Shown here: one piece after another, positions 1 to 44,005 of the stretch
Position numbering within the stretch: the stretch's first letter is position 1
Layout of the letters: the number at the start of each line of letters is the position of its first letter
Assembly: GCA_022572465.1 (NCBI GenBank)
Contig: JACZVV010000010.1
Span: forward strand, 1 to 45,022
From: Chloroflexota bacterium
GTDB taxonomy: Bacteria > Chloroflexota > Dehalococcoidia > SHYB01
Direction of reading: 5' to 3'
DNA: 45,022 bases
Made by a program: the position numbers and the translations under genes
Notes under the pieces: generated by a model
Databases searched by the model: none
The model's input: the letters and a program-made list of their open reading frames with translations, nothing else
What the model was told of the DNA's origin: nothing

Positions 1-178
1 GCCGCGGCAACATTTCCGGCCCACGCGGGCTGGCGGCTGAGCCGCAGCAACATTTCCGGCCCACGCGGGCTGCCCACTAAGGGGAGTCCAGCGGAGCGAA
101 GCCCCGGTGCCGTGGCTGAGTACTAGCGGGCTGTTGGTGCCCGCGTGGGCCGGAATAATGATGCGGCTCAGCCGCCGG
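1..178. repeat. Dispersed GGCTGAGCC repeat cluster (two direct copies and one inverted copy)
   Basis: Bases 1-32 and 41-72 are the same 32-bp sequence with one mismatch (40-bp period), containing GCAACATTTCCGGCCCACG. Bases 139-176 are close to the reverse complement of the 35-72 copy and end in GCGGCTCAGCCGCC. The cluster therefore can fold into a large stem with the bases 73-138 as loop. It is a diverged member of the 54-bp family seen at six other places in the window. The left part is cut by the window edge, so the gene it follows is unknown. Confidence 0.85.
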
Positions 179-187
179 TGGTAATCT

Positions 188-583
188 ATGGTTGAAACTG
201 CCCGGCAGCGGGGTTCCCCAAGGAGATATCGTTTGCCACGACTGCGGCCATCCCGGCTGCTCTCCCGGGTCATGCTCGGGTGGGCGCTGGTTGTGCTGTC
301 GACCGTCTTCTTGATCCTCATCCCGGTCGTTTGGCTCCTGCCCTTGAACGGCGCGGTCAAGGGTTCGCTGACAGCCGCCTTTGCCATAGCGGGCGAGGTG
401 ACGTTCTGGCCCGGAGCGGCCATGCTCGGCTTCGAGTTCGCTAAGCGCTTTCGGGCGAGGCTGAATCCGCTGAGATTGATCCGCGGGCGCCGAAACTCGA
501 CCGCATCAACCGCCAGTCCCGGCAGCGATAGGGCCACTGCTCCCGTCGACTCGCCGGCCGGCGGGAGTCCGCCGCGGGGATGA
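188..583 (+). CDS. Small two-helix membrane protein, transporter-suffix-domain-like
   Basis: This 131-residue protein has a basic N-terminus (residues 1-27), a hydrophobic segment at about 28-52, a second at about 58-82, and a charged, Ser/Pro-rich tail. The segment LIPVVWLLPLNGAVKGSL followed by GEVTFWPGAAMLG resembles the small 'transporter suffix domain' proteins, in which two helices flank a similar turn; no catalytic function is known for them. The assignment rests on remembered family pattern. The ATG at 188 has no good ribosome binding site and lies 10 bases after a repeat copy, so GTG/ATG alternatives inside the N-terminal basic region, for example Met29, are possible. The gene converges on the cupin gene. 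Confidence 0.6.
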   Translation: MVETARQRGSPRRYRLPRLRPSRLLSRVMLGWALVVLSTVFLILIPVVWLLPLNGAVKGSLTAAFAIAGEVTFWPGAAMLGFEFAKRFRARLNPLRLIRGRRNSTASTASPGSDRATAPVDSPAGGSPPRG

Positions 584-635
584 CCGCGCATGGCGGCGGC
601 TAAGATCGGCGTGGACGTTCAACTGATTCGCTAAT

Positions 636-735
636 CCGCCGCGGGCGTCGGCCGGAAATACCGATGTGGCTCAGCCACCTCAGCCGCTGCAACATTGGCC
701 GGAAATACCGATGTGGCTCAGGCGGCTGAGCCGCC
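636..735. repeat. Dispersed GGCTGAGCC repeat, two minus-oriented copies
   Basis: Two copies of GGAAATACCGATGTGGCTCA lie at 654-673 and 701-720, followed by GGCGGCTGAGCCGCC at 721-735. Both copies are in reverse orientation relative to the 54-bp consensus. The block fills most of the 153-base gap between the convergent 131-residue gene and the cupin gene and ends one base from the cupin TGA stop at 737-739. The rest of the gap (584-635) shows nothing recognisable. Confidence 0.85.
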
Positions 736-736
736 G

Positions 737-1078
737 TCAGGCCAGCGGGATGATGGCGATGCGCCGGTCTCCCGAACCGCGGGTGATGTGCCCCTGGCCC
801 GTGGTGTCCTCCGCCAGCAAGACGTCGCCGGCGACCAGGCGCCGTTTGCTCCCGTCGCCGATCTCGACCTCCATCTCGCCCGAGAGGATGATGACGTATT
901 GACGCTGCGGGGCGCCATGCCAATCCATGAACGTCTCGCCCTTGGTGTGGCGGAACATGATGCCTGTCGTCGGCTGGTAGGCAGCCGCGTCCCGTGCCCC
1001 TGAAGCCGTGAACAGCCCTTCGATCTCCTCGAAATGCGTGCGGCCATCGTCGCCGGTATAGATTCGAAGCGTAGCCAA
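737..1078 (-). CDS. Small single-domain cupin protein
   Basis: The 113-residue product looks like a single cupin barrel: a central run QYVIILSGEMEVEIGDG followed by LVAGDVLLAEDTTGQGH matches the conserved turn-glycine pattern of the two cupin motifs. The usual metal-binding His-X-His of motif 1 is not complete (only one His, in DWHGAPQ), so it may not be a metal enzyme; substrate unknown. The start is TTG at 1078, chosen because AGGAGG lies six bases upstream and the N-terminus MATLRIYTGDDG reads naturally. The gene lies downstream of recG, separated by a 30-bp palindrome, and its stop touches a repeat cluster. Confidence 0.8.
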   Translation of the reverse strand: MATLRIYTGDDGRTHFEEIEGLFTASGARDAAAYQPTTGIMFRHTKGETFMDWHGAPQRQYVIILSGEMEVEIGDGSKRRLVAGDVLLAEDTTGQGHITRGSGDRRIAIIPLA

Positions 1079-1158
1079 AGCAGGCCTCCTTTCGCGTCGA
1101 ACGCCGGGCGTATGCTACCGGGGGCTCGGCGCCTACGTCAAGAACGCGGAACGAGTCA

Positions 1159-1188
1159 CCCCCTCTCCATGTCGACATGGAGAGGGGG
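1159..1188. terminator. 30-bp perfect palindrome downstream of recG
   Basis: The two 15-base arms (CCCCCTCTCCATGTC and its exact complement) meet with no spacer, giving a 30-bp perfect palindrome 18 bases after the recG stop codon. As RNA it would form a 13-bp stem. No T-run follows on the minus strand, so intrinsic termination is only inferred; it may instead be a dispersed hairpin or protein site. Confidence 0.5.
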
Positions 1189-1206
1189 ACGGGGGCCAAC
1201 GCCGCG

Positions 1207-3729
1207 CTAGGCCTCGCCGGTGGCCAGCGTGCGGTGGCGCCATGCCCGCTCGACGGCGGCGGCCAGCTCCCGGTGCTCCGAGCGCTCCAGCGTCGGGTCC
1301 GCTTCGAAGATATCGCCGGCCACCTCTCGCGCCTCTTCCAGCAGCGGCAGGTCGGAAATCCGCGCCATGCGCAGGTCGGGCATGCCGCTCTGACGGGTGC
1401 CGAAGAACTCGCCGGGGCCACGCAGCCGCAGGTCCTCCTCGGCCAGCTGGAATCCGTCGTGGACCGTCTCCATGAGCCGCAACCGCTCGCTGGCCCCCGG
1501 CGTCGGCGATTCCGAGATCAGCATGCAGTAGCTCTCGTGCTCGCTCCTGCCGACGCGGCCTCGGAACTGGTGCAGCTGGGCCAGGCCGAAGCGCTCGGCC
1601 GACTCCACCAGCATCACCGTTGCGTTGGGCACGTCGATCCCCACCTCGACGACCGCGGTGGCGACCAGGATATCGAGCTCGCCGGCCCCGAACCGGCGCA
1701 TGATCTTGTCCTTCTCGTTGGCCTTCATCCGGCCATGCAGCAAGCCCACGCGCAGGTCGGGAAAGACCTCCTCGCTCAACCGCCGGTGCTCTTGCCGCGC
1801 GGCGGCTTGTTGCAGCCTCTCCGACTCTTCGATCAGCGGGTAGATGATGAAGGCCTGGCGACCCTCGCCCACCTGCTTCCGAATGAACGCGTAGGCCGAA
1901 TCGCGCCGGTCGGCATCCAGCCAGCGAGTTCGGATCTCGCGGCGTCCCGCGGGGAGCTCGTCGATGACCGAAATGTCCAGGTCACCGTACAGGGTCAGAT
2001 AGAGCGTCCTTGGAATCGGCGTTGCCGTCATCACCAGGAGATGAGGATTGTAGCCTTTCTGGCGCAGCTCCGAGCGCTGCATGACGCCGAACCGGTGCTG
2101 CTCGTCGACGATCACCAGTCCCAGGCTGGCGAACTCCATGTCTTTCTGGAACAGGGCGTGGGTGCCGACGACGATGTCGATCTCGCCGCGATTGGCCAGC
2201 TCCTGGACCTCCTGCTTGCGCTTTCGCGAGAGGCCGCCGGTGAGGACGGCGACGGTCACCGGCCTGGACTGGGGAGAGAGCGTTACCGTGACGATCCCCT
2301 GGGTCTGGCCGGGCTTGGCGACCACCTTCAGGAGCTGCTGGACGGTGCGGAAGTGTTGCTCGGCCAGGATTTCGGTGGGCGCCATGAAGGCCGTCTGCTG
2401 TCCGTTGGCCGCCGCGACCAACGCCGCGGCCAACGCGACCACGGTCTTCCCGCTGCCGACCTCCCCTTGAAGCAGACGGCTCATCGGCGTCGACCGGCCC
2501 AGATCGGCCATGACCTCCTGAACGCAGCGCCGTTGGGCTCCGGTGGGCTCGAAGGGCAGCGCCGCGAAGAAAGCGTCCAGCACCGCTGGATCGGCCCGCA
2601 ACGGGTGGCCGGGCATGCTCTGTTTCCACTCCCGCTTGCGGTGCAGCACCCCGAGCTGGATCAGCAGCAGCTCGTCGAACGCCAGACGACGCCGGGCCCG
2701 CTCCTTGCTCTCCAGCGAGTCGGGGAAATGGGCTTGGCCTATCATTTGGGGCAGCGCCGCCAGCGACCGCCGCCGTCGATGCTCCTCCGGTAGAAAGTCG
2801 GCAACCTTCCCCACGCAAGCGTCGACCGTTTTTTTGATCAGCGTGCGAAGCCGGCGGGAGGTCAGCCCCTCGGTCAGCGGGTAGACGGGCACCAGACGGG
2901 CCGTGTGGACGAGCTCTTTCTCGGCCATCGGCTCGTACTCCGGGTTCTCGAAGACCCTATGGCCTCGGTGCAAGGCGACACGCCCGCTGAGCGCGATGCG
3001 CGTGCCCGGCCGGAGCCCGCGAGCGACCCACGGCTGGTTGAACCACACCACCCGCACGTTGCCCGAATCGTCGCCGACGACGGCCTCGGTCGACCGGCGC
3101 CGGGACGCCCCCATCTTGACCTCCGACGCCTCCCACACCGTCCCCATGGCCGTCTGCTCGCGGCCGACCTCGAGCGACGCGATGGGCGAGACTCGCGTGA
3201 AATCGATATGCCGTCTGGGAAAGAGATACAGCAGCTCCCGGACGGTCGAGACGCCCAGCCGTTCCAGCTTCCCGATCACGAAGGGAGTGAATCCGTTGGC
3301 CTCGCCCAGCGGCGTGTCCAGGGACTGGCCGGCTCGCAGCACCGTCGCGGCGTCCGCGGCGCGTTTGGCCGGCCTGGCCGCGGCACGCTTGGCCGGTTGC
3401 CGCCGGCTCGGTGGCGGCTGCTCCCCCTCCTGGGGCACGCCCGCGAACCCATCGGCCCAGCGCAGCACACGCTCGATCCAGTCGGCGCGCTGCCGCGGCG
3501 ACTTCGAAGCGTAGTCCGGCGACACCAGCTCCAGCCGGCGCAGGGTAGAGCGAAACATGGGGTGAACGACGTTCCGGTGCGCTTCCAGCGCCCACTGCTT
3601 CACGAACCCGTCCATCCCCCCGATGACGGCGCCGTCGGTAAACTTTTTTTCTTTTTCCAGCAGCAAGACCTTCCGAAGCCGATGGGTCATGATCGCCGGA
3701 TCGTTGCTATCGAGGCGCTGCTCGCTCAT
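1207..3729 (-). CDS. recG: ATP-dependent DNA helicase RecG
   Basis: RecG is the branch-migrating helicase that remodels stalled replication forks and Holliday junctions. The 840-residue protein carries an N-terminal extension (about 1-155, with a Lys/Arg/Ala-rich linker near 100-130), the OB-fold wedge domain (about 165-330), then two helicase lobes: Walker A GEVGSGKT at about 421, the DEQH box in VIVDEQHRFGVMQR near 540, MTATPIPRT motif III and LQQFRGRVGRS-type motif VI (seen as LHQFRGRVGRSEHESY). It is about 150 residues longer than the E. coli enzyme because of the N-terminal extension, usual in several phyla outside Proteobacteria. The start ATG at 3729 overlaps the stop of the DegV gene (ATGA), which implies translational coupling. 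Confidence 0.97.
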   Translation of the reverse strand: MSEQRLDSNDPAIMTHRLRKVLLLEKEKKFTDGAVIGGMDGFVKQWALEAHRNVVHPMFRSTLRRLELVSPDYASKSPRQRADWIERVLRWADGFAGVPQEGEQPPPSRRQPAKRAAARPAKRAADAATVLRAGQSLDTPLGEANGFTPFVIGKLERLGVSTVRELLYLFPRRHIDFTRVSPIASLEVGREQTAMGTVWEASEVKMGASRRRSTEAVVGDDSGNVRVVWFNQPWVARGLRPGTRIALSGRVALHRGHRVFENPEYEPMAEKELVHTARLVPVYPLTEGLTSRRLRTLIKKTVDACVGKVADFLPEEHRRRRSLAALPQMIGQAHFPDSLESKERARRRLAFDELLLIQLGVLHRKREWKQSMPGHPLRADPAVLDAFFAALPFEPTGAQRRCVQEVMADLGRSTPMSRLLQGEVGSGKTVVALAAALVAAANGQQTAFMAPTEILAEQHFRTVQQLLKVVAKPGQTQGIVTVTLSPQSRPVTVAVLTGGLSRKRKQEVQELANRGEIDIVVGTHALFQKDMEFASLGLVIVDEQHRFGVMQRSELRQKGYNPHLLVMTATPIPRTLYLTLYGDLDISVIDELPAGRREIRTRWLDADRRDSAYAFIRKQVGEGRQAFIIYPLIEESERLQQAAARQEHRRLSEEVFPDLRVGLLHGRMKANEKDKIMRRFGAGELDILVATAVVEVGIDVPNATVMLVESAERFGLAQLHQFRGRVGRSEHESYCMLISESPTPGASERLRLMETVHDGFQLAEEDLRLRGPGEFFGTRQSGMPDLRMARISDLPLLEEAREVAGDIFEADPTLERSEHRELAAAVERAWRHRTLATGEA

Positions 3730-4577: not shown

Positions 4578-4641
4578 GGCTGGGCCTGTTCAGTTTCGCC
4601 CCGAGACTGGCCCGGAGAGCTTCTGTGTCCTTTTGGCACGG

Positions 4642-6276: not shown

Positions 6277-6287
6277 GGTCCGGCTTC

Positions 6288-9353: not shown

Positions 9354-9470
9354 GGTGGCTGAGCCACATCAGTTTTTCCCGCCCAATGTCCCTACGGCTC
9401 AGCCGCCCGGAATTGCTGACCTGGCTCAGCCACCCGCGTGGGCCGGAATACTGCTGCGGCTCAGCCGCCG
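9354..9470. repeat. Dispersed repeat: one full 54-bp copy plus a diverged copy
   Basis: Bases 9354-9407 form a complete 54-bp element starting GGTGGCTGAGCCACATCAG and ending ACGGCTCAGCCGCC. Bases 9422-9470 form a second, diverged copy with GGCTCAGCCACCCGCGTGGG at the left and GCGGCTCAGCCGCC at the right, like the copy at 139-176. Both occupy the argG-maoC gap, 11 bases after the argG stop and just upstream of the MaoC ribosome binding site. Confidence 0.9.
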
Positions 9471-9481: not shown

Positions 9482-10696
9482 CTATAACTCCTCGTCCTGG
9501 GCCAGCGGCTGGGCCTGGGCCTGGGTCCTGGCGGACAGGCCCCACAGGTGGATGAATCCCTCGGCCGCCGAATGCCGGAAGGCGTCGTCGTCACCGTAGG
9601 TCGAGAGGTCCCGCCGGTAGAGCGACGCCTCCGACTGACGGCCCACGACGGTCGATGTCCCCTTGTGCAGTCGCACGCGGACGGTCCCGCTCACGTACCG
9701 TTGGGTGCTGCTCACATACGCCGCCAGGTCCTGGCGCATCGCCGTAAACCAGAGACCGTTGTAGATCAGATCGGCATACTCCTGGGCGACCCTGGCCTTG
9801 AACCGAAGCTGGTCCTTGCTCAGCGTCAAGGCCTCCAGGGCGCGGTGAGCCTGGCCCAGCACCGTCGCCGCCGGCGCCTCGTAGATCTCCCGGGACTTGA
9901 TGCCCACCAGCCGGTCCTCCATGTGGTCGATGCGGCCGACGCCATGCAGGCCCGCCACGGCGTTGACGTGCCGGATGAGGCTCACGCCGTCCAGCTCCTC
10001 GCCGTCCAACGCCACCGGCACGCCGCGCGCGAACGCTATCTCGACGTAGGCGGGCTCGCCGGGCGCGTCCTTCACCGAGCGGGTCCACGCGTAGACCTCC
10101 TCGGGCGGCTCGGCCCACGAGTCCTCCAGCACGCCGCCCTCGACGCTGCGGCCCCACAGGTTCTCGTCGACGGAGTAGGGCCGGTCGACGGTCACGGGCA
10201 CGGGGATGCCGTGCTTCTTGGCGTAGGCGATCTCGACCGCGCGATCGGTCATCTCCCACTCCCGCGCCGGGGCGACCACCTTCAGGTCCGGCGCCAGCGC
10301 CTGGATGCTGACGTCCAGGCGCACCTGGTCGTTGCCCTTGCCGGTGCAGCCGTGGGCCACGGCGGACGCGCCCTCCTTCCGGGCCGTGTCCACCAGCAGC
10401 CGGGCGATCAAGGGACGGCCCAGCGCCGTTGCCAGCGGATAGACGCCCTGATACAGGGCGCCGGCCTGGAGCGCGGGGAAGACGTAGCTCCGCACGAAGC
10501 GGTCCCGGACGTCGGCGACGTGGGCGCTAACGGCGCCCGCTCGCAGGGCCTTCTCGCGCACGCCGTCCACGGTCCCGTCGCCGCCCAGATCGGCGGTGAG
10601 CGTTATCACGTCCATGCCGTAACGCTCGTGGATCCACCGTATAGCCACCGAGGTGTCCAGACCGCCGCTATATGCCAGGACCACTTTCTCGGCCAC
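9482..10696 (-). CDS. argG: Argininosuccinate synthase
   Basis: Joins citrulline and aspartate with ATP to form argininosuccinate. The 404-residue protein opens MAEKVVLAYSGGLDTSVAI, the PP-loop ATP-binding motif (SGGLDTS), and has HGCTGKGNDQVR near residue 115 and YSVDENLWGRS near 178, all standard. Its start lies 16 bases after the argD stop, consistent with one transcript. The C-terminus ends in a Gln/Ala-rich tail (about 390-404). Confidence 0.98.
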   Translation of the reverse strand: MAEKVVLAYSGGLDTSVAIRWIHERYGMDVITLTADLGGDGTVDGVREKALRAGAVSAHVADVRDRFVRSYVFPALQAGALYQGVYPLATALGRPLIARLLVDTARKEGASAVAHGCTGKGNDQVRLDVSIQALAPDLKVVAPAREWEMTDRAVEIAYAKKHGIPVPVTVDRPYSVDENLWGRSVEGGVLEDSWAEPPEEVYAWTRSVKDAPGEPAYVEIAFARGVPVALDGEELDGVSLIRHVNAVAGLHGVGRIDHMEDRLVGIKSREIYEAPAATVLGQAHRALEALTLSKDQLRFKARVAQEYADLIYNGLWFTAMRQDLAAYVSSTQRYVSGTVRVRLHKGTSTVVGRQSEASLYRRDLSTYGDDDAFRHSAAEGFIHLWGLSARTQAQAQPLAQDEEL

Positions 10697-18898: not shown

Positions 18899-20920
18899 AT
18901 GCAGGTCTACGCTACCGGGGCCATTCGCAACGTCGCTCTCCTCTCTCACAGCGGCGCGGGTAAGACGAGTCTCGCCGAGGCGATGCTCGTCGCGTCCGGC
19001 GCGCTCAACCGCTTGGGCGACGTGGAGGAGGGCACGACCGCCGCCGACTTCGAACCCGAAGAGATCGAGCGCAGCAGCAGCATCCAGACTGCCGTCGTCC
19101 CGTCCGAGTGGAAAGACGTCAAGGTCAACATTCTGGATACGCCGGGGTACGCCGATTTCGACGGCGAGGTGCTCTCGGCGCTGGCGGCGGCCGACTGTGC
19201 ATTGGTGGTGGTGAGCGCCGTCGACGGTGTGGAGGTGGGCACGGAGGTGACCTGGAACGGCGCCGCCGACAGAGGCCTGCCCCGGATCGTCCTGGTCAAC
19301 AAGATGGACCGGGACAACGCCGACTTCTACCAGGTGCTGGATGCCATCCGATCGCGTTTCGGCCGGCAATGCGTTCCCGTCCTGCTGCCCATCGGGGCCG
19401 GGGACTCCTTCTCGGGCGTCATCAACCTGCTGGACCCGAGCAACGCCGACCAGGACCCCAGGTTCGGCGAGTTCCGCGAGCAGCTGGTGGAGGCGGCGGC
19501 CGAGACCGACGACGCCTTGACGGAAAAATATCTCGACGAAGGCGATCTGACGCCTCAGGAGCTGGCCTCGGGGCTCAAGGCGGGCGTCCTCGCGGGCACG
19601 CTCTTCCCGGTGCTGGCGTCATCGGCGACGAAACAGATCGGGGTAACGGAGCTGCTGGATTTTCTCGTCGAATACGCGCCGTCACCGGCGGACCGAGGCC
19701 CCGTCGCCGCGTCCGGCTCATCGGGAGACGCCGTGGAGCTGTCGCCAGTGTCGGGGAACGGCCCCGTCGCCTTCGTGTTCAAGACGTCGGCGGACCCCTA
19801 CGTCGGCAAGCTGTCGTTCTTCCGCGTCGTGGCCGGGACCATGAAAAGCGATTCGCATTTCTGGAACGCCAACAAGGAGGAGCCAGAGCGTTTCGGCCAG
19901 CTCTTCGTTCCCCGGGGCAAGGCGCAGGAATCGGTGCCGACGCTGGAGGCGGGCGACATCGGCGCCGTCGCGAAGCTTCAGCACACCTCCACCGGCGACA
20001 CCATCTGCCTGAAAGAGTCGGCGGTCACGCTGCCGGCCATCGAATTCCCCAAAGGGGTGTATAGCGTGGCCATCGGCCCCAAGACCAAGGCCGACATGGA
20101 CAAGATGGGCGCTGCCTTGAATCGACTGGTCGAAGAGGACCCCACCCTGCGAGTCACCCGGGACCAGGAGACCGGCGAGACGCTCCTCTCATCGCTGGGC
20201 GAAGCCCACGTCGACGTGGCGGCCAAGAAGCTGAAGCGTAAGTTTGGGGTCGACGTGCTGACCGATACGCCCCGGGTCCCCTATCGCGAGACGATCACCG
20301 GCAAGGCCAACGCCGAGTACAAGCACAAGAAGCAGACCGGGGGCCACGGCCAGTATGGACACGTCTATCTCGAGCTGGAGCCGCTCCCCCGAGGGACCGG
20401 TATCGAGTTCAGTACCCGCGTCTCCGGTGGAGCCGTGCCCAGAGAGTACTTCCCCGCAGTCGAGAAGGGTGTGAAGGAAGCGGTGACGAAAGGTGTGCTC
20501 GCCGGAAGCCGCGTCGTCGACGTGAAGGTGACGCTGTACGACGGCAGCTCGCACCCGGTCGACTCGTCGGGCATGGCGTTCCAGATCGCCGGCTCCCAGG
20601 CCTTGAAGAAAGGGCTCGAGCAAGCGAACCCGGTGATCCTGGAGCCGATCATGCGGCTGAACGTGACGGTGCCCGACAGCTACACCGGCGACGTCGTCGG
20701 CGACCTCAACGCCAAGCGATCGAAGGTGCTCGGCATGAACCCCGAGGGCGGCCTGACGTCCATCGAGGTGCAGGTGCCGTTGGCGGAGGTCCAGCGCTAC
20801 GCGACGGACCTCCGCTCCATGACCCAGGGCCGGGGACGCTACACCATGGAGTTCAGCCACTACGAACAGGTCCCGGCCCACCTGGCCCAGAAGATCGCCG
20901 CCGAGGTCAAGCAAGAGTAG
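18899..20920 (+). CDS. Elongation factor G-like translational GTPase (EF-G2 subfamily)
   Basis: The 673-residue protein has the EF-G layout: GTPase domain with P-loop SHSGAGKTS at 16-24, G3 DTPGYADF near 82, G4 NKMD near 137, then domain II, III, IV (GGHGQYGHVYLELEPL near 482) and V. The P-loop SHSGAGKT instead of AHIDAGKT, the EEIERSSSI effector region and overall shortness place it in the EF-G-like paralog group found in many Chloroflexota, Actinobacteria and others, whose role (elongation versus ribosome rescue/recycling) is not settled; the main fusA would be elsewhere with the str operon. ATG 18899 is supported by AGGAGG nine bases upstream. Confidence 0.92.
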   Translation: MQVYATGAIRNVALLSHSGAGKTSLAEAMLVASGALNRLGDVEEGTTAADFEPEEIERSSSIQTAVVPSEWKDVKVNILDTPGYADFDGEVLSALAAADCALVVVSAVDGVEVGTEVTWNGAADRGLPRIVLVNKMDRDNADFYQVLDAIRSRFGRQCVPVLLPIGAGDSFSGVINLLDPSNADQDPRFGEFREQLVEAAAETDDALTEKYLDEGDLTPQELASGLKAGVLAGTLFPVLASSATKQIGVTELLDFLVEYAPSPADRGPVAASGSSGDAVELSPVSGNGPVAFVFKTSADPYVGKLSFFRVVAGTMKSDSHFWNANKEEPERFGQLFVPRGKAQESVPTLEAGDIGAVAKLQHTSTGDTICLKESAVTLPAIEFPKGVYSVAIGPKTKADMDKMGAALNRLVEEDPTLRVTRDQETGETLLSSLGEAHVDVAAKKLKRKFGVDVLTDTPRVPYRETITGKANAEYKHKKQTGGHGQYGHVYLELEPLPRGTGIEFSTRVSGGAVPREYFPAVEKGVKEAVTKGVLAGSRVVDVKVTLYDGSSHPVDSSGMAFQIAGSQALKKGLEQANPVILEPIMRLNVTVPDSYTGDVVGDLNAKRSKVLGMNPEGGLTSIEVQVPLAEVQRYATDLRSMTQGRGRYTMEFSHYEQVPAHLAQKIAAEVKQE

Positions 20921-20921: not shown

Positions 20922-21039
20922 CGGCGGCTGAGGTGGCTGAGCCACATCGGCGTTCCCGGGTGGCTGAGCCACGTGAGCGTTCCCGGGTGGCTGAGCCACA
21001 TCAGCATTTCCGGACTAATGTTGCTGCGGCTCAGCCGCC
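20922..21039. repeat. Dispersed repeat: three left ends in 27-bp tandem, one complete 54-bp copy
   Basis: Three units beginning GGTGGCTGAGCCAC start at 20932, 20959 and 20986, exactly 27 bases apart; the first two end in GCGTTCCCG and the third continues through the 26-bp core to GCGGCTCAGCCGCC at 21026-21039, making a full 54-bp element. An isolated GGCGGCGGCTGAG precedes them, starting one base after the EF-G-like TAG stop. The remaining convergent gap (21040-21159) contains a hairpin GTCCCGAC/GTCGGGAC near 21074-21091. Confidence 0.92.
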
Positions 21040-26290: not shown

Positions 26291-28405
26291 ATGACCACCG
26301 ATACCATCACCCACATTCGAAAGCGGGACGGACGCATCGTTCCCTTCGATCCCGTCAAGCTCGTCAACGCCGTCACCAAGGCGTTCGAGGCCTCGGGCGT
26401 CGCCCATCCGGGCGCGCCCCGGCAGGTCGCCGACGAGGCGGCGACCCGAATCCACGAGCGCTTTCCCGGCCTGACCCCCGGCGTGGAGGACGTGCAGGAT
26501 GCGGTGGAGGAGGCGCTGATGTCGCTGGGCCACGGCGAGGTCGCCAAGGCCTACATCCTGTACCGCCAGAAGCGGACGGAGGTCCGGTCGGCCAAGGAGC
26601 TCCTCGGTGTCAGCGACGAGCTCAAGCTTACGGTGAACGCCATCAAGGTCCTGGAGCGTCGCTACCTCCGAAGTGACGAGGACGGCCGCCTCATGGAGAC
26701 GCCCCTCCAGATGTTCCGCCGGGTCGCGGGCGCCGTCGCGTCCGTGGAATCCCGATTCCATCGGGACGTGGGCGAGGCGGAGGAGCGCTTCTTCAAGGCC
26801 ATGGCCAGTCTGGAGTTCCTGCCCAACTCCCCGACGTTGATGAACGCCGGAACGGCCATCGGCCAGCTCTCCGCTTGCTTCGTCATTCCCATCGACGACG
26901 ACATGGCCAGCATCTTCGGCGCGGTGCGCAGCATGGCGCTGATCCACCAGTCGGGCGGCGGGACCGGCTTTTCGTTCTCCCGTGTACGGCCCAAGGGCGA
27001 CATCGTGCGCTCTACCCATGGCATCGCCTCGGGGCCCATCTCGTTCATGCGCGTGTTCGACACCGCCACCGACGTGATCAAGCAGGGCGGCCGGCGCCGA
27101 GGCGCCAACATGGGCATCCTGCGCGTCGACCACCCGGACGTCCTGGAGTTCATCGCCGCCAAGAGCGCCGAAGGCGTCCTGACCAATTTCAACGTCTCCG
27201 TCGCCGTGACCGACGCCTTCATGGAGGCCGTCGATCACGGCCACGACTACCCGCTGATCAATCCTCGAACCGGCATGGAGGTGCGCCGGGTCAGCGCCCG
27301 TCACGTCTTCGATCTGATGGCGACCGGCGCCTGGAAGAGCGGCGACCCGGGCCTGGTCTTCATCGACGAGATCAACCGGCACAATCCGACGCCGGACCAG
27401 GGGCCCATGGAGTCGACCAACCCCTGTGGCGAGCTCCCTCTGCTGCCCTACGAGAGCTGCAACCTGGGCTCCATCAACGTCGCCAGAATGGTCCGCGACG
27501 GAGCGTTCGATTGGGACCGGCTCGGGGCGACGGTCGAGCTCGGAGTCCGCTTTCTGGACGACGTCATCGAGGCTAACCGGTACCCTCTGGCCGAGATCGA
27601 TGCCCCGACCAAAGGCAACCGCAAGATCGGCCTGGGCATCATGGGGTTCGCCGACGCGCTCGTTCTGCTGGGCCTGTCGTACGCCTCCGAGGAGGGCGTC
27701 GCCTTCGGCGAAAGGCTCATGGAGTTCGTCCAGCGGGAGGCGATGCGGGCGTCGGAAGGTCTGGCCCGGCAGCGAGGGCTTTTCCCCAATTTCCCGGGCA
27801 GCGTCCACGACCGTCCCGATGGGCCTAGACCGCGAAACGCCACGGTGACCAGCATCGCGCCCACCGGCACCATCAGCATCATCGCCGGCTGCTCCAGCGG
27901 CATCGAGCCCATGTTCGCCCTGTCGTTCGTGCGCAACGTCATGGATGGAGTCCAGCTCCTGGAGACCAACCCTTACTTCGAGCAGGTCGCCCGGGACCGG
28001 GGATTCCACTCGCAGCGGCTGATGGCCCAGGTAGCCCGGACAGGGACCGTTGGCGGCCTGGAAGAGGTGCCGGAGGACGTGCAGCGTCTCTTTGTGACCG
28101 ACTTCGACATCGCCCCCGAGTGGCACGTCCGGATGCAGGCGGCCTTCCAACGCCACTGCGACAACGCGGTCTCCAAGACGATCAACCTGCCCAAGGACGC
28201 CACCGTCGACGACGTGCGCAAGGCCTACTTGCTGGCCCACCAGCTCAAGTGCAAAGGCATCACCGTCTTCCGGTACGGGAGCAAGGGCCAGCAAGTCCTG
28301 TACCGCAGCGGCGACATCGTCGAGGGCAAGGGCGAGGTGGCGCCCTTCGTGAGCGCCGACTCGGAGTACGCCGGCGGCTGTCCCGATCCCACCTGCGAGT
28401 ACTAA
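26291..28405 (+). CDS. nrdJ: Adenosylcobalamin-dependent (class II) ribonucleotide reductase
   Basis: Makes deoxyribonucleotides using a vitamin B12-derived radical. The 704-residue protein has an N-terminal ATP-cone (about 5-95, starting THIRKRDGRIVPFDPVKL), then the 10-stranded α/β barrel: FLPNSPTLMNAG and SACFVIPIDDDM (redox Cys), FSFSRVRPKGD, the thiyl-radical Cys379 in TNPCGELPLLPYESCNLGS with the partner Cys, and PTGTISIIAGCSSGIEP. The C-terminal tail GGCPDPTCEY supplies the redox Cys pair. No separate small subunit gene is adjacent, as expected for class II. The in-frame frame extends upstream to 26027 but ATG 26291 is the first Met giving a normal start. Confidence 0.95.
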   Translation: MTTDTITHIRKRDGRIVPFDPVKLVNAVTKAFEASGVAHPGAPRQVADEAATRIHERFPGLTPGVEDVQDAVEEALMSLGHGEVAKAYILYRQKRTEVRSAKELLGVSDELKLTVNAIKVLERRYLRSDEDGRLMETPLQMFRRVAGAVASVESRFHRDVGEAEERFFKAMASLEFLPNSPTLMNAGTAIGQLSACFVIPIDDDMASIFGAVRSMALIHQSGGGTGFSFSRVRPKGDIVRSTHGIASGPISFMRVFDTATDVIKQGGRRRGANMGILRVDHPDVLEFIAAKSAEGVLTNFNVSVAVTDAFMEAVDHGHDYPLINPRTGMEVRRVSARHVFDLMATGAWKSGDPGLVFIDEINRHNPTPDQGPMESTNPCGELPLLPYESCNLGSINVARMVRDGAFDWDRLGATVELGVRFLDDVIEANRYPLAEIDAPTKGNRKIGLGIMGFADALVLLGLSYASEEGVAFGERLMEFVQREAMRASEGLARQRGLFPNFPGSVHDRPDGPRPRNATVTSIAPTGTISIIAGCSSGIEPMFALSFVRNVMDGVQLLETNPYFEQVARDRGFHSQRLMAQVARTGTVGGLEEVPEDVQRLFVTDFDIAPEWHVRMQAAFQRHCDNAVSKTINLPKDATVDDVRKAYLLAHQLKCKGITVFRYGSKGQQVLYRSGDIVEGKGEVAPFVSADSEYAGGCPDPTCEY

Positions 28406-28409
28406 CGCC

Positions 28410-28465
28410 GGTGGCTGAGCCACATCAGCATTTCCGGCCCAATGTTGCGGCGCCTCACCAGCCAC
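28410..28465 (+). repeat. Dispersed repeat copy with a degenerate right end
   Basis: It begins GGTGGCTGAGCCACATCAGC four bases after the reductase TAA stop and keeps the TTTCCGGCCCAATGTTGC core, but the right terminus reads CGCCTCACCAGCCAC rather than GCGGCTCAGCCGCC. It separates two copies of the reductase tail-coding sequence. Confidence 0.88.
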
Positions 28466-28506
28466 GCTGGCGGGTGTCCCGATCCTACCTGCGAGTACTG
28501 ACGCCG
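28466..28506 (+). repeat. Second copy of the reductase 3' end
   Basis: These 41 bases match 28370-28410 (the last eleven codons, stop and following bases of the reductase gene) at 37 positions, 96 bases downstream. Read in frame it again gives AGGCPDPTCEY and then TGA. The three differences inside codons are all synonymous third-base changes; the fourth changes TAA to TGA. It is a non-coding remnant here because the upstream copy already ends the gene. Confidence 0.85.
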
Positions 28507-28589: not shown

Positions 28590-28667
28590 GAAGCCATCCC
28601 GAAAACCCCTCGCCCTTGAAGGGTGAGGGCGGTCCCAATCTGGCGGCCCCATTTTCGGGATGGCTTC
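28590..28667 (+). repeat. 78-bp element with 16-bp perfect terminal inverted repeats in the fmdB leader
   Basis: GAAGCCATCCCGAAAA (28590-28605) is the exact reverse complement of 28652-28667. Inside, CCCTCGCCC (28607-28615) pairs with GGGTGAGGG (28621-28629) around TTGAA; one pair is G·U in plus-strand RNA but would be a C·A mismatch in minus-strand RNA. The element could be a small MITE or a structured 5' leader; the wobble favours a function in the plus-strand transcript. Different in sequence from the GGCTGAGCC family. Confidence 0.75.
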
Positions 28668-28693: not shown

Positions 28694-29095
28694 ATGCCCG
28701 TCTACGAGTACACGTGCCACAGCTGCCGCAAGATCGTGAGTATCTTTCATCGGAGCATCTCCTCCCAGGTCGAGGCCGTCTGCCCGAACTGTCAGAGCAG
28801 CGACCTCCAACGGCGCATCTCGCGCGTCATCATCGCCAAGGGGACGCGACGCCACCTCGACGAGATCGACCGGGACCGGCTCATGGGACAGTACGAGGGC
28901 ATCGACAAGGGAAGCCAGGCCTCATGGGCCCGGCGCGTGGCCGGCGAGCTGGGTGAAGCGGGAACCGAGTTCCGGGACATGGCCGAGAAGGTCGAGGCCG
29001 GCGAGGACGTGTGGGACCTCTACGACCCGGCGCCGATGCTCGACCACAAGATCAACGCAAAAAAAGAAGAGCTCTCAGGCGGCGGCGGCGGCTGA
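28694..29095 (+). CDS. FmdB-type zinc ribbon protein
   Basis: The 133-residue protein starts MPVYEYTCHSCRKIVSIFHR and has a second knuckle CPNCQSSDLQRRIS near 31, the four-Cys zinc ribbon of the FmdB putative regulatory family. The remaining ~90 residues are charged and helical (EIDRDRLMGQYEGIDKG), longer than minimal FmdB proteins. Function is not established; regulators and RNA-polymerase-associated roles have been suggested. The last codons GGC GGC GGC GGC GGC TGA lie inside a dispersed repeat, so its poly-Gly end and stop codon come from the repeat. It converges on the cation exchanger gene. Confidence 0.85.
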   Translation: MPVYEYTCHSCRKIVSIFHRSISSQVEAVCPNCQSSDLQRRISRVIIAKGTRRHLDEIDRDRLMGQYEGIDKGSQASWARRVAGELGEAGTEFRDMAEKVEAGEDVWDLYDPAPMLDHKINAKKEELSGGGGG

Positions 29096-29152
29096 GCCGG
29101 TGGCTGAGCCACATCGGTATTCCCGGCCCAATGTTGCTGCGGCTCAGCCGCC
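29084..29152. repeat. Complete 54-bp dispersed repeat shared by two convergent gene ends
   Basis: A GGCGGCTGAGCC end (29087-29098) is followed by a full 54-bp copy at 29099-29152, GGTGGCTGAGCCACATCGGT to GCGGCTCAGCCGCC. The GGCGGCTGA at 29087-29095 gives the last two codons and stop of the FmdB-type gene; the same sequence on the minus strand (29152-29144) gives the last two codons and stop of the exchanger gene. Confidence 0.93.
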
Positions 29153-30400
29153 TCTGGGCTGGGCCAGCGTTCCGATGGATCGCAGGCCCCTGACCACGCC
29201 GCCCACGAGGGCCCACATAGCCTGCCGCCGCTCGCGATTCACCATCAAGATCGTCAGGGAAAGCCCAAGGTAGATCATCGCGAACGTTATCCGGATCGTG
29301 GAGTCGGTGAAGAAGAGCTGGCTGACGAACAGGACGAAGAGCGCCAGGGCGCCACGCCACGAGATGCGCAACGTCACGATCATCAAGATGGCGAAGAGCG
29401 ACTGGGCCGCCGTGAGGAGAAACTCGTCGAGCTGACGGTCGTCGAGGGGGAGGCCTTCCACCGAGCCCAGGTTGATCATATACACCAGCGGCAGCGACCC
29501 CACCAGCAGCGTCCACTGGTTCACCTTCGCCGACACCAGCACCCCCATGGCCATCGTGCCCATGCCGCGAAAAGCGAAGTAGGCCGCGATGCCGATCTCC
29601 GGCGCTTCCGACGCCAGCGGCGCGACCCACTGCACCAGGAAGAACTCGTCGATCCCGATGTCCCTGCCGGTCTCGATGAGGCTGCTGGCGAAGGGCTCGG
29701 CCACGGCGATGATCACCAGGGCCGGAGCGATGAACAAGCCGGCGATGACCGTCCATCTCCGTCCGCGGCTCAGGCGCGTCAGCGCCGCCATGGGCCCGGC
29801 CGCATGCTCGTCGCCGCCGGGTTTGGACCGAGCGCTCAACACGATGTACACGGCGAAGAGCCCGAAGAGCACCGCCGTGTCCACGATGTTCAACGACCCG
29901 TCTAGAAAGTAGGCGCGCAGAAAGATGGTGAAGGCCCAGGCCGTGGCCAGCAGAAGAAAGGTCAGCTCCAGCGTCTGCCGTTTGTCCAGAATCAGCGGTT
30001 TTCGACTCTGCCGGTACCAGAAGATCAGGACCACCAAGGCCCAACCGACACCGATGAGCAACCGGTTGCTCCCAGTCATGTTGGCGGCGGCGTACTGGGC
30101 GAACTGGGGATCGTCGGCCGCCTTCCAGGCGAACACCAGGTCGACGGCGTACTCGGGAAGAATCGCCACCAGAGCGATGAGGGCCAGTGCCAGCGACCTG
30201 GAGATCTCCACCTCGGCCAACTCGCCGCCCGCTCCGAGGAGAAATGCCGCGCCCAGGATAGCGATGCCGTAGAGTGCCGTCTCCACCACCGGCTCGTCGC
30301 TGAAGCCCGTCACCCGAAGCGCCAAGGCGGGCGCCGTCAGCGCCGCAGCGGCGGCAATCGCCAGCCACGGTCCTCTCATGCTGCCCGGAGCTGAGTTCAT
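29144..30400 (-). CDS. CaCA-family sodium/calcium exchanger-like membrane protein
   Basis: The 418-residue protein has about ten hydrophobic helices and the two α-repeats of the cation/Ca2+ exchanger superfamily: GGELAEVEISRSLALALIAL leading into VAILPEYAVDL near 83, and VQWVAPLASEAPEIGIAAYF near 244. Each repeat retains the acidic ion-binding Glu after Pro. It probably exchanges Na+ or H+ for Ca2+; ion choice cannot be read. A long charged cytoplasmic loop (about 195-220) separates the halves. The last residues (PRGG) and stop are within a repeat element. ATG 30400 is weakly supported; Met8 is an alternative. Confidence 0.87.
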   Translation of the reverse strand: MNSAPGSMRGPWLAIAAAAALTAPALALRVTGFSDEPVVETALYGIAILGAAFLLGAGGELAEVEISRSLALALIALVAILPEYAVDLVFAWKAADDPQFAQYAAANMTGSNRLLIGVGWALVVLIFWYRQSRKPLILDKRQTLELTFLLLATAWAFTIFLRAYFLDGSLNIVDTAVLFGLFAVYIVLSARSKPGGDEHAAGPMAALTRLSRGRRWTVIAGLFIAPALVIIAVAEPFASSLIETGRDIGIDEFFLVQWVAPLASEAPEIGIAAYFAFRGMGTMAMGVLVSAKVNQWTLLVGSLPLVYMINLGSVEGLPLDDRQLDEFLLTAAQSLFAILMIVTLRISWRGALALFVLFVSQLFFTDSTIRITFAMIYLGLSLTILMVNRERRQAMWALVGGVVRGLRSIGTLAQPRGG

Positions 30401-34711: not shown

Positions 34712-35137
34712 GTGACCACCACGTCCGAGTACAAAAAACCCATTCCCCGGCCCACCGGCGAGAGCCAGCCGTTCTGGGATTTCTGCAAGAAGCACGAGCT
34801 GCGATTCCAGCGGTGCAGCAAGTGCAACACCTTCAGGCACTATCCCCGCCCGCTGTGCGGCGAGTGCGGCTCTTTCGATTTCGATTGGGTGCAGGTCGCT
34901 CCCAAGGGAACGGTCCACAGCTGGGTGACGGCCCACCGGGCCTTCCATCCCGGCTTCGCGGAAGAGCTCCCGCTGGCCATCGTCATCGTCGACGTCGACG
35001 AAGCGCCGGGCATCCGCATCATGGCGAACTACAACGACGGCACCAAGGCCGACGAGGTCGCCGTGGGCGCTCCGGTCAAGATCGTGTTCGACGATGTGAC
35101 GGAAGAGTTCACCCTGCCCAAGATCGCCCGGGCCTGA
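34712..35137 (+). CDS. DUF35 zinc-ribbon/OB-fold acyl-CoA-associated protein
   Basis: The 141-residue protein has the DUF35 layout: an N-terminal helix, a rubredoxin-like zinc ribbon (RCSKCNTFRHYPRPLCGECG, four Cys) near 34-53, and an OB fold (VQVAPKGTVHSWVTAHRAFH onward) ending in VKIVFDDVTEEFTLPKIA. Such proteins partner thiolase-like enzymes, bringing the CoA substrate. GTG 34712 starts two bases after the thiolase stop, with GGGAGG in the end of that gene as ribosome binding site. Its stop is followed ten bases later by the repeat array. Confidence 0.92.
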   Translation: MTTTSEYKKPIPRPTGESQPFWDFCKKHELRFQRCSKCNTFRHYPRPLCGECGSFDFDWVQVAPKGTVHSWVTAHRAFHPGFAEELPLAIVIVDVDEAPGIRIMANYNDGTKADEVAVGAPVKIVFDDVTEEFTLPKIARA

Positions 35138-35145
35138 TGGCCCGT

Positions 35146-35567
35146 GGCTGAGCCAGTGGCTGAGCCACATCGTTATTTCTGGCCCAATATTGTTGCGGCC
35201 CGGCAGCGTGAGCAACATGGCCATTTCCGGCCTAATGTTGCTGCGGATCAGCCGCCGGGTGGCTGATCCACATCGTTATTTCTGGCCCAATATTGTTGCG
35301 GCCCGGCCGCTTGAGCAACATGGCCATTTCCGGCCTAATGTTGCTGCGGATCAGCCGCCGGGTGGCTGAGCCACATCGTTATTTCTGGCCCAATGTTGGC
35401 TGCGGCCCAGCCGCGTGAGCAACATGGCCATTTCCGGCCCAGGGTTGCTGCGGCTCAGCCGCCGGGTGGCTGAGCCACATCGTTATTTCCGGCCCAATGT
35501 TGGCTGCGGCCCGGCCGCGTGAGCAACATGGCCATTTCCGGCCTAATGTTGCTGCGGCTCAGCCGCC
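35146..35567. repeat. Tandem array of four 103-bp units built from the dispersed repeat
   Basis: Units start GTGGCTGA(G/T)CCACATCGTT at 35156, 35259, 35362 and 35466, spaced 103, 103 and 104 bases; the last ends at 35567. Each unit is two head-to-tail elements: the first keeps a good left end but a degraded right end (GCGGCCCGGC), the second a degraded left end (GCGTGAGCAACATGG) and a good right end (CAGCCGCC). Within the second half AGCAACATGGCC pairs with GGCCTAATGTTGCT (two-base bulge). An extra partial copy lies at 35144-35155. This fills most of the 551-base gap between the DUF35 gene and dxs; 35568-35590 shows nothing. Confidence 0.95.
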
Positions 35568-38649: not shown

Positions 38650-38660
38650 AAGGACGGCTT

Positions 38661-38691
38661 GGGCCGTCCCGGCGAAGGTCGGGACGGTCCC
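38661..38691 (+). other. Hairpin between the prenyl synthase gene and hpnH
   Basis: GGGCCGTCCCG (38661-38671) pairs with CGGGACGGTCCC (38680-38691) with a one-base bulge and an eight-base loop. It may be an attenuator or an mRNA processing site; the gene order shows the operon continuing past it. Confidence 0.4.
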
Positions 38692-38711
38692 TGGAAAAGG
38701 ACGCATAGACC

Positions 38712-39734: not shown

Positions 39735-39832
39735 CGGAGATGCGGCCCACAAGCGTTCGATGTCACCTGAAGGAGACCCGCGCCAGCTGAAGGACGGCTG
39801 AGACAAGTTGGCCGCCGGGACGCACACACGCC

Positions 39833-40177: not shown

Positions 40178-40198
40178 TCATCCTTCGGGAGTGACATC

Positions 40199-40984
40199 TT
40201 GATCGTGTTCATCGCCGCGTTGAAGCAGGAGCTAGCCGCCTTCGGCGAGGTCGTCGCCATCGATCGGCGGGAGCAGGTCGACGGCGTGCCGCTGGCCGAA
40301 GGGCACGCCGATGGAGTCGCCGTCGCTCTGGTCCAATCGGGGATCGGCCGCCAACGGGCGTCCGAGGCGACCCGGCTGGCCATCGCGCGCTACCGCCCCG
40401 ACATGATCGTGTCGGTGGGCTACTCCGGCGGCCTATCTCCGGAGATCCGGGGTTCAGACCTGGTGCTGGGCCAGCGCCTTCTGGCTGCGGAGCCAGCGTC
40501 GCCGGGAGGCGAGCCCCATCTTGTCGGCGAACCCATCGAGGTCGAGCCGTCGCTTCTGGACACCACGGCCATCGCCATGGAGGAGTCACTCCTTGCGGCG
40601 CGCAGCGGAGACTTCGTTACCGTTCCCGCGATCGTGCGCGGCTATGGCGAGAAGGACCGGCTGCGACGCCGGTCGTCGGCGTTGCTGGTGGATATGGAAA
40701 GCTACTGGGTGGCGCTGGCGGCCCGGGAAGCCGAGGTGCCCTTCGTCGCGGCTCGGGTGGCCTCCGACGAGATCGGCGATACGTTGCCCGATTTCACGAA
40801 GTTCGCGGACGCCATGGGTGGGATCCGGCCCCTGTCCGCGGCGTGGTACTATCTGACGCACCCTCACCATGTGTTGGGGGCGGGAGTCTTGGCCTATAAC
40901 GCCCGCCAGGGCGCCCGCAATCTCGCGGCCTTTGCCGCGCTGTTCCTTACCATAGCGTTTCGAGGAGCGCCCGTGCGGCGATGA
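40199..40984 (+). CDS. hpnG: Adenosylhopane nucleosidase/phosphorylase HpnG
   Basis: HpnG removes adenine from adenosylhopane, giving ribosylhopane (or the phosphorylated form), the step after HpnH. The 261-residue protein has the nucleoside-phosphorylase fold: LVQSGIGRQRASEATR near 44, VSVGYSGGLSPEIRG near 70 and the ribose-binding VDMESYWVALAARE near 164. Start TTG 40199 has GGGAG seven bases upstream (GTG 40205 is the alternative). Its stop overlaps the hpnA ATG (ATGA). Confidence 0.9.
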   Translation: MIVFIAALKQELAAFGEVVAIDRREQVDGVPLAEGHADGVAVALVQSGIGRQRASEATRLAIARYRPDMIVSVGYSGGLSPEIRGSDLVLGQRLLAAEPASPGGEPHLVGEPIEVEPSLLDTTAIAMEESLLAARSGDFVTVPAIVRGYGEKDRLRRRSSALLVDMESYWVALAAREAEVPFVAARVASDEIGDTLPDFTKFADAMGGIRPLSAAWYYLTHPHHVLGAGVLAYNARQGARNLAAFAALFLTIAFRGAPVRR

Positions 40985-41965
40985 AGGCCTTGGTCACCGG
41001 GGCCACCGGGTTCATCGGGAGCAACCTGGTGCGGGCGCTGCTCGATGACGGCGCCCAGGTCCGGGGCCTGGCGCGGCCAGGGAGCGACCGCCGGGCGTTG
41101 CAGGGCCTCTCGGTGGATATCGTCGAGGGGGACCTGCTGGACGTGGCCTCGCTCCGGCGGGCCGTGGCCGGGTGCGACACCCTGTTCCACGTGGCCGCTC
41201 TGTACGCCTACTGGCCGCCGGACCGCGATCTGTTCTACCGGGTCAACGTGGAGCACCAGAAACGTCCTGGAGGCCGCTCGGGATGCGGGGGTCCAGCGGA
41301 CCGTTTTCACCAGCTCGTCGGCGACGATAGGCCCGGCGAACGGGACGGGGCCCGCAAACGAGGAGACGCCTGCCAAGACCGGCGGACTCCTCAAGGGGTA
41401 CAAGGAGTCAAAATATCTGGCGGAGCAAGAGGCGATCAAGGCGAACGCCGCAGGTTTTCCGGTGGTGGTGGTCAACCCCACGGCGCCGATGGGCCCGTGG
41501 GACGTCAAGCCAACGCCGACGGGGAGGATCGTTCGAGACTTTCTTCTGGGGAAGATGTTCGGCTATGTCGATACGGGACTCAACGTGGTGCACGTGCGAG
41601 ACGTTGCTCGGGGGCACATCCTGGCGGCCGAGAGAGGCAAGCCGGGCCGGCGCTACATCCTGGGCAACCGCAACATGGCGCTGCGGGAGATCTTCCAGGC
41701 GTTGGGGACCATCGCCGGCCGCCGGCCGCCGAGGCTGCGGGTGCCGTACGCCCTCGCCCTGGCCTTCGCCCATCTCGACGAACTGGTGGAAGGCAGGATG
41801 GCGCGCGGGACGCCTCGAGCGACCGTCGCGGAGGTCAAGCTGTCACGCAAACCGATGTATTTCGACGCCTCTCGGGCAGTGCAGGAGCTCGGCATGCCCC
41901 AGACCTCGGTGGAAGAGGCGCTCAGCGACGCCGTCGATTGGTTCCGGGACCATGCGCATGGATAA
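40981..41965 (+). pseudogene. hpnA: Hopanoid-associated sugar epimerase HpnA, interrupted by a frameshift
   Basis: Frame 1 from ATG 40981 reads MKALVTGATGFIGSNLVRAL (Rossmann GxxGxxG) up to FYRVNVEHQ near 41258; the protein continues in the next frame as TRNVLEAARDAGVQRTVFTS, then GYKESKYLAEQEA with the catalytic Tyr-x-x-x-Lys and the normal C-terminus to 41965. The break falls at about 41251-41256, where GTGGAG CACCAGA would need two more bases (GGCACC) or one fewer. Total length, 985 bases, equals 328 codons plus one. The rest is intact and conserved, so a sequencing error is as likely as real inactivation. The family is NAD(P)-binding short-chain epimerase/reductase-like. Confidence 0.88.
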
Positions 41966-41986
41966 CCAACCACATTTGGAGGGACG

Positions 41987-44005
41987 ATGACCGAGATTAC
42001 GTCCGGAGAGACGATCACCGAGGCTACGTCGGCAGCCCACACAGGGGTTGAGGGACAGATGGCGGTAGACGCCCAGCCAGTCGATGCCTTCGAGACCAGG
42101 CTGGACCGTTGCATCGGCCGGTCTCAAGATTATTTGCTGGGGCTGCAATCGCCGGACGGGTATTGGTGGGGTGAGCTGGAGGCAAACTGCTCGATCCACG
42201 CCGAGTATCTGTTACTGACCCATTTCCTGGACGTGGCCGACCGGGAGCGCTGGCGCAAGATCGTCAACTACCTCCAGGCCCACCAGCTCCCCGACGGTGG
42301 CTGGCCGGTTTGGAGCGGCGGTCCCGGCGATCTCAGCATCGCCGTCGAGGCCTACTTCGCCATGAAGCTGGCGGGGGTGGACCCGAACGACCCTTCGATG
42401 ACCAGGGCCAGGGAGTTCATTCTGTCCAAAGGCGGCGTGCCGAACGCCCGAATCTTCACCAAGCTCTGGCTGGCCTTCTTCGGCCAATGGGACTGGGCGG
42501 GCACGCCGTCCTTTCCCGCGGAGGTCATCCTGCTTCCAAGCTGGTTCCCGTTCAACATCTACGAGTTCGCCGGCTGGGCGCGGGGGACGATGGTGGGCTG
42601 CATGGTGCTGTTGACCACCAAGCCGGTGTGCCCGGTGCCGGAGAGCGCCCGCATCGACGAGCTGTATCCCCTGGGTCGCGAGGAGACCGAATACAAGTAC
42701 GGCAAGAGCGGCAAGAGCGGCAAGACGTTGAGCTGGAACAGCTTGTTCCGGGGGATGGACCGGGCGCTGCGCGTGCTCGAGCTTTCGCCCGTGAAGCCGC
42801 TGCGCAAGGCGGCGCTGCGCAAGGCCGAACGTTGGATCGTCGAGCGGCAGGAGGAGGACGGCTCATGGGGCGGGATCCAGCCCCCCTGGGTCTACTCGTT
42901 GATGGCCCTCAAGAGCCTGGGCTACTCCATGGACCACCCCGTCATGAAAAAAGGCCTCCAGGGGTTCGAGGGCTTCGCTCGAGAGACCGAGGACCTTTTC
43001 TGGATAGAGCCCTGCTTGTCGCCGGTGTGGGACACGTGTCTCGCGATGCTGGCGTTGCAAGACTCCGGGCTTTCTCCCGACCATCCTGGGCTGGCCAAAT
43101 CGACCGATTGGATCCTGGACAAGCAGATCCTGGACCACGGCGGAGACTGGCAGGTGAAACGGCCGAACGTCCGGCCCGGCGGATGGGCCTTTGAGTTCGC
43201 CAACAACGTGTACCCCGATGTCGACGACTCAGCCATGGTGCTCATCGCGCTGCACAAGATGGGCCGCGACGACGAGCGAATGCAGCGTGCGCTGAGCCGC
43301 GGCGTCGAATGGATCGTCGGGATGCAGAGCAAGGACGGCGGCTGGGGCTCCTTCGACGTCGACAACACCCGGTCGTGGGTCGCCGAGATCCCGTTCTGCG
43401 ACTTCGGCGCCGTGCTCGACCCGCCCACCGAAGACGTGACCGCCCACGCCGTCGAGCTCTTGGGCCGCATGGGTCTGAACGGCGGCGACAGCCCGGCTGC
43501 CCGGGGCCTGGAATTCCTCAGGCGGAGCCAAGAGCCTGACGGCTCATGGTGGGGACGGTGGGGCGTCAACTATATCTACGGCCTGGGATCGGTGGTGCCC
43601 GCGTTGAACGTCATGGGCGAAGACATGAGCCAGCCCTACGTCCGGAAAGCCGTGGCCTGGCTGGAGACCCATCAGAACTCCGACGGCGGCTGGGGCGAGG
43701 GCTGCGAGAGCTATCGCGATCCGTCCCTTCGGGGTCAGGGGCCCAGCACCGCGTCGCAGACGGCGTGGGCGTTGCTGGCTCTCATCGCCGCGGGCGACGC
43801 CGGTGGAGACGCGGCCGGAAGGGGGGTAGCGTTTCTGCTGCGGACCCAACAGGACTTCGGCTCCTGGGACGAGTCTCAGTTTACCGGCACCGGCTTCCCC
43901 GGCGACTTCATGATCAACTACCACCTCTACCGGGACTACTGGCCCCTGATGGCCCTGGGCCAGTACCGCACGGCGGTCCGCAACGGGGCCGGCGGAGGCG
44001 GCTGA
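41987..44005 (+). CDS. shc: Squalene-hopene cyclase
   Basis: Cyclises squalene to hopene/hopanol, the core of hopanoid synthesis, on the membrane. The protein of up to 672 residues has the protonating DVDD motif (Asp411, Asp413, Asp414) in NNVYPDVDDSAMV and many QW repeats: QSPDGYWWGE, QLPDGGWPVW, QEEDGSWGG, QSKDGGWGSF, QEPDGSWWGRWG, QNSDGGWGEG and QDFGSWDE. N-terminal ATG 41987 has GGAGGG only three bases away and the first ~24 residues contain a 27-bp tandem duplication; Met25 (42059) is a reasonable alternative giving 648 residues. The C-terminus ends GAGGGG and the stop lies in GGCGGCTGA. Confidence 0.97.
   Translation: MTEITSGETITEATSAAHTGVEGQMAVDAQPVDAFETRLDRCIGRSQDYLLGLQSPDGYWWGELEANCSIHAEYLLLTHFLDVADRERWRKIVNYLQAHQLPDGGWPVWSGGPGDLSIAVEAYFAMKLAGVDPNDPSMTRAREFILSKGGVPNARIFTKLWLAFFGQWDWAGTPSFPAEVILLPSWFPFNIYEFAGWARGTMVGCMVLLTTKPVCPVPESARIDELYPLGREETEYKYGKSGKSGKTLSWNSLFRGMDRALRVLELSPVKPLRKAALRKAERWIVERQEEDGSWGGIQPPWVYSLMALKSLGYSMDHPVMKKGLQGFEGFARETEDLFWIEPCLSPVWDTCLAMLALQDSGLSPDHPGLAKSTDWILDKQILDHGGDWQVKRPNVRPGGWAFEFANNVYPDVDDSAMVLIALHKMGRDDERMQRALSRGVEWIVGMQSKDGGWGSFDVDNTRSWVAEIPFCDFGAVLDPPTEDVTAHAVELLGRMGLNGGDSPAARGLEFLRRSQEPDGSWWGRWGVNYIYGLGSVVPALNVMGEDMSQPYVRKAVAWLETHQNSDGGWGEGCESYRDPSLRGQGPSTASQTAWALLALIAAGDAGGDAAGRGVAFLLRTQQDFGSWDESQFTGTGFPGDFMINYHLYRDYWPLMALGQYRTAVRNGAGGGG

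Follow-up and report, generated by a model that had tools for sequence, protein, structure and literature searches.

The systems closest to the repeat family analysed here are the two large super-families of GTAG- and CGTC-tagged REPs, whose monomers also combine into inverted heterodimers and into arrays (Di Nocera et al. 2013, PMC3733652). Of their copies between convergent genes, most are less than 20 bp from both 3' ends, and their termini often supply stop codons (TAG); the CGTC REPs have no dedicated transposase (PMC3733652). REPINs with a RAYT pair two inverted REPs across a short spacer, can fold into one long hairpin and are dispersed as a unit (Bertels and Rainey 2011, PMC3116915). 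The BIMEs and REPs of E. coli form mosaic arrays at transcript 3' ends, and those REPs that are no further than 15 nt from a stop codon have been reported to stall ribosomes (PMC12306157). Finally, QMITE2 of Coxiella burnetii is a small repeat found mostly in 3' untranslated regions that can change the C-terminus of a gene (PMC5896051).

The repeat described here comes from a genome of the class Dehalococcoidia. It shares with the GTAG/CGTC REPs (PMC3733652) its short, high-copy extragenic palindromes, its heterodimers and arrays, its 3'-end sites and its donation of stop codons, and, as with the CGTC REPs, no dedicated transposase was found for it (in a genome that is 82.9% complete). However, it carries neither tag, and its stop codon is a TGA in the hairpin loop rather than a TAG in the tag. 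It resembles REPINs (PMC3116915) in its two inverted units, short spacer, possible long hairpin and dispersal as a unit, but no RAYT or Y1 transposase was detected and covariation backs the long hairpin weakly. Mosaic arrays at transcript 3' ends and copies no more than 15 nt from a stop codon are also features of E. coli BIMEs and REPs (PMC12306157), which differ in sequence and phylum, the stop codon here often lying inside the hairpin loop. The position in 3' regions and the ability to alter a C-terminus recall QMITE2, which in contrast is 150-190 bp long, has direct repeats and contains a GTAG REP (PMC5896051). The element works like a REP, but it has no tag and, within the limits of an incomplete genome, no RAYT. 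What is new is an untagged family, its taxon and a frame-phased TGA borne in the loop; 3'-end clustering, heterodimers and stop donation were already known from tagged REPs. Literature searches returned nothing usable on a mycobacterial-repeat precedent or on repeats in Dehalococcoidia.

The window, meaning the whole stretch of 45,022 nucleotides that was analysed, is a complete contig of a 2.9-Mb genome in 160 contigs. A conserved protein places this genome in the Dehalococcoidia, with a Lake Baikal genome as its closest named relative (61% identity). Three relatives of the same family and one more of the same order were compared; the median orthologue identity to one of the same-family relatives (G002) is 49%. 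Anatomy and gene ends were analysed in 0.60 Mb, comprising 19 contigs taken by number, 20 contigs that hold copies and the window, with genes called by our own codon-usage script. The original prediction described three 54-bp copies, at 9354-9407, 20986-21039 and 29099-29152, whose coordinates and exact length are confirmed; its end sequences also agree, except at one base in the 9354-9407 copy, whose right end is ACGGCTCAGCCGCC and not GCGGCTCAGCCGCC. The partial copies that it placed at 1-178, 636-735, 9422-9470, 28410-28465 and 35146-35567 are real. The copies in the window are these:

1..178: at the contig start, copies that are partial or rearranged, with arms at 33-45 (TGA on the + strand) and 163-175 (TGA on the - strand) and the GGCCCACGCGGGC tail variant; the array meets the assembly break
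636..735: arms at 666-678 and 722-734 plus a truncated arm, at whose TGA the ORF 718-1047 (-) stops
9354..9407, + strand: full 54-bp dimer
9421..9470, + strand: shortened dimer; the argininosuccinate synthase gene 9482-10696 (-) stops 13 bp away from it
20924..21039, + strand: array behind an EF-G-like gene (stop 20918-20920), with a truncated arm, tandem 27-bp units and a full dimer (20986-21039)
28410..28463, + strand: left arm, core and a decayed right arm, 5 bp downstream of the B12-dependent ribonucleotide reductase stop codon
29088..29100, + strand: extra arm GCGGCTGAGCCGG; the zinc-ribbon gene 28694-29095 (+) takes its stop from the TGA of this arm (29093-29095)
29099..29152, + strand: full 54-bp dimer; the Na/Ca exchanger gene 29144-30313 (-) stops at its right-arm TGA (29144-29146, - strand)
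35144..35567, + strand: tandem array with 4.0 copies of a 104-bp unit that comprises two adjacent elements, 6 bp past the stop of the gene 34712-35137 (+)

The monomer consists of a 13-14 bp hairpin arm, with a five-pair stem and a TGA loop, and a tail of about 14 nt ending at CCGG, and agrees with the broad definition of a REP as a short (20-40 bp), high-copy and mostly extragenic palindromic unit. The dispersed unit is an inverted dimer of 52-54 bp in which two arms are joined tail to tail. Among successive arms in the 0.60 Mb, 33 are tail-to-tail, and 24 of these 33 have exactly 39 bp between arm starts, which is the REPIN arrangement of two inverted REPs dispersed as a unit with a short spacer; 75 are head-to-tail, at many spacings, and 7 are head-to-head. 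The dimer is a heterodimer, with a left arm that is mostly GTGGCTGAGCCAC and a right arm GCGGCTCAGCCGC, and their tails, each read on its own strand, approximate RTCRGCNTTTCCGG and AGCAACATTRGGCCGG respectively, with CCGG as the meeting point. Arrays have periods of 12, 18, 27, 48, 74 and 104 bp, and local amplification is evident at 20932, where the unit is 27 bp, and at 35156, where it is 104 bp. No unpaired GTAG or CGTC stands at the base of the stem in any of the 39 full copies; their outer G is preceded by A, C or G, and the inner flank is ATCA/GTCA or TGCT/TGAT. The predicted REPIN/BIME-type architecture is upheld by the fixed-spacing inverted hairpin pairs, the BIME-like arrays, the high copy number and the extragenic 3'-end sites. 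A tail variant in which GGCCCACGCGGGC or a similar sequence replaces the right half of the dimer is found at positions 1-130 of the window, L064:25-153 and L055:15843-15921, and may represent a second sub-family.

The family is not limited to the copies in the window. Exact arms (GYGGCTSAGCCRC) number 295 genome-wide against 6 for a reversed-pattern control, and 66 arm pairs lie 20-34 bp apart. In the window, GTGGCTGAGCCAC with up to two mismatches occurs 36 times against 2.15 in shuffled sequences (a count of 36 is reached in 0 of 100 shuffles), and GCGGCTCAGCCGC occurs 42 times against 8.1. Although the 0.60-Mb sample is 86% coding, 6 arms lie deep within coding sequence and 128 in intergenic DNA or at the ends of genes. 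The true copy number is probably higher than the count, since contig starts fall in arrays: arms are carried by 6 of the 39 contig starts examined, as is expected of repeats, which break assemblies. Contigs L039, L055, L056, L059 and L064, as well as the window (1-178), start inside arm arrays, and genes flanked by elements may be missing from the assembly.

Twelve relatives have 0-4 arms per genome, within the range of their controls. A class-wide search detected one lone arm pair, in one of 392 other genomes, which was taken as chance. The exact bipartite pattern is absent from GTDB r220 contigs and IMG/VR, a searched set to which the source genome possibly does not belong, and an Rfam search of the window gave zero matches. 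The family is restricted to its taxon and is a REP variant new in sequence, extending REP-type repeats to a little-studied class.

When arms are collected by their tail alone, two classes emerge, a background with 0-3 pairs and a distinct class with 5-6. In the latter the loop is TGA almost without exception, while pair 2/12 may be T-A, C-G, A-T or G-C and pair 3/11 may be G-C, C-G or T-A. In an alignment of 39 dimers, 15 cells of the two-hairpin structure are changed on both sides, whereas shuffling gives 4.1 and 0 of 500 shuffles get as far as 15; the intra-arm covariation score is 0.154 against 0.080 +/- 0.010. The predicted minimum-energy form is a single long hairpin (-34.5 kcal/mol, z -6.5), for which the same alignment has 10 cells changed on both sides against 7.1, a value reached in 64 of 500 shuffles. 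This form was rejected as the conserved one because inter-arm covariation is weak and near the shuffled level, and, with strong covariation inside the arms, each arm is best seen as its own hairpin. Compensatory changes within palindromes can also come from quasi-palindrome templated mutation, without selection on structure.

The repeat had been predicted to mark gene 3' ends throughout the window, and statistically this is the case for both tandem and convergent genes in the larger sample, about half of which was picked for holding copies. Between tandem genes, 12 of 19 elements lie no more than 15 bp from the upstream stop (5.1 expected, p = 1e-4), and just one of the 19 is that close to the downstream start. 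In 11 convergent pairs, 18 of the 22 gene ends are within 15 bp of an element (7.9 expected, p below 5e-5), and in 7 of the 11 the element fills the intergenic gap to within 4 bp. Copies are thus mainly downstream of coding regions, as REPs are; the marking is not complete, however, as 7-9 of approximately 40-50 clusters sit between divergent genes.

The original prediction did not note that the arm loop is TGA and provides stops. Of 18 overlaps between an arm and a coding end, about 14 have the arm TGA as the stop codon of the gene, against one third by chance (binomial p = 1.4e-4). At 29,088-29,152 both convergent genes stop at arm TGAs. Where the stop precedes the element, the frame of the arm is random (7, 5 and 7). 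Six arm-stopped proteins end between -4 and +8 residues from their G002 orthologues, and are therefore essentially full length. TGA stop codons were considered as an insertion target, and this was rejected, as the stops just ahead of elements, where the element does not itself provide them, are a mix of TGA, TAG and TAA similar to that of the gene set. Selection against out-of-frame insertions could account for the in-frame use of TGA without targeting. An outward stop codon at both ends, and gene-overlapping copies in frame far above chance, illustrate in numbers how repeats of this type can persist in dense genomes.

The original prediction noted that the window contains no transposase, and this is borne out there and in the whole available genome (82.9% complete), where searches for Y1/RAYT (PF01797, NF047646), TnpB (PF07282) and IS110 (PF01548) gave zero matches. 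PF01797 was not found in the four same-family or same-order relatives either, and is carried by 12 of the 41 genomes searched. Because contigs start in arm arrays, a transposase flanked by elements could have been lost in an assembly gap. The repeat adds one more REP family without a detectable RAYT, and bears on what moves untagged and CGTC REPs.

The reading that we favour, with a probability of roughly 0.75, is that of a lineage-specific REP-type family that spread as non-autonomous hairpin DNA in trans and persists at gene 3' ends. Two slightly different monomers would have joined tail to tail to form the dispersed 52-54 bp REPIN-like heterodimer, with local duplication giving rise to the head-to-tail arrays. 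The family would be mobile, most likely copied via single-stranded hairpins by a Y1/RAYT-type enzyme, or one equivalent in function, that acts in trans. Copies would persist where harm is least, at gene 3' ends, where, judging from the sequences, the outward-facing TGA of either arm can close an in-frame coding sequence at near-normal length. The transcribed hairpin (the -34.5 kcal/mol fold) would then become the 3' end structure of the gene, and might protect the mRNA or, as E. coli REPs are reported to do, damp translation at the stop codon.

A variant of this reading, in which the TGA loop is kept as a portable stop, phased to the reading frame and near-harmless when inserted in the last codons of genes, and the REP family spreads by means other than a Y1 (RAYT) transposase, is unlikely. 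It seems less probable still that the repeat is a non-mobile transcription terminator or RNA processing signal, evolved by the host and selected at gene ends, as the strong 3'-end position and a hairpin stable in both orientations might suggest. The flank composition of full dimers reveals no T-run of the kind that follows an intrinsic terminator, and just three arms in the 17 kb scanned, all in the 35144 array, look terminator-like. Furthermore, clusters also occur between divergent genes (7 in the gene-gap analysis), the copies form arrays, and relatives in the same family lack the repeat despite shared orthologous genes. The core is also conserved across copies, though structure alone would suffice for a terminator.

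Improbable as well is passive spread, in which replication slippage and template switching multiply a hairpin-prone sequence and no transposase is involved. The many head-to-tail arrays and their varied periods, together with the failure to find a Y1 transposase, are what it would lead one to expect, and the copy at 28410 offers a local example: it is bracketed by a 43-bp direct duplication (37/43 identical) that takes in the 3' end of the ribonucleotide reductase gene and its stop codon, with copies at about 28370-28412 and 28464-28506, the downstream one continuing without an element. Slippage accounts for local arrays, but not for some 50 separate clusters in 0.6 Mb that share one dimer spacing. 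A small MITE, which the original prediction had also entertained and which would derive by deletion from a DDE-transposase insertion sequence and move by means of its terminal inverted repeats, is just as improbable, since such repeats, a fixed 52-54 bp length and the bracketed 28410 copy are outweighed by the lack of a target-site duplication in all 39 full copies at any offset tried, by the lack of flanking duplication above background in 41 of 42 clusters (28410 being the exception), and by ends that are each a covarying palindrome with little covariation between them. Also in this part of the window, a long inverted repeat, AAGCCATCCCGAAAA ... TTTTCGGGATGGCTT, is located at 28590-28667, between the ribonucleotide reductase and zinc-ribbon genes, and may belong to another repeat family.
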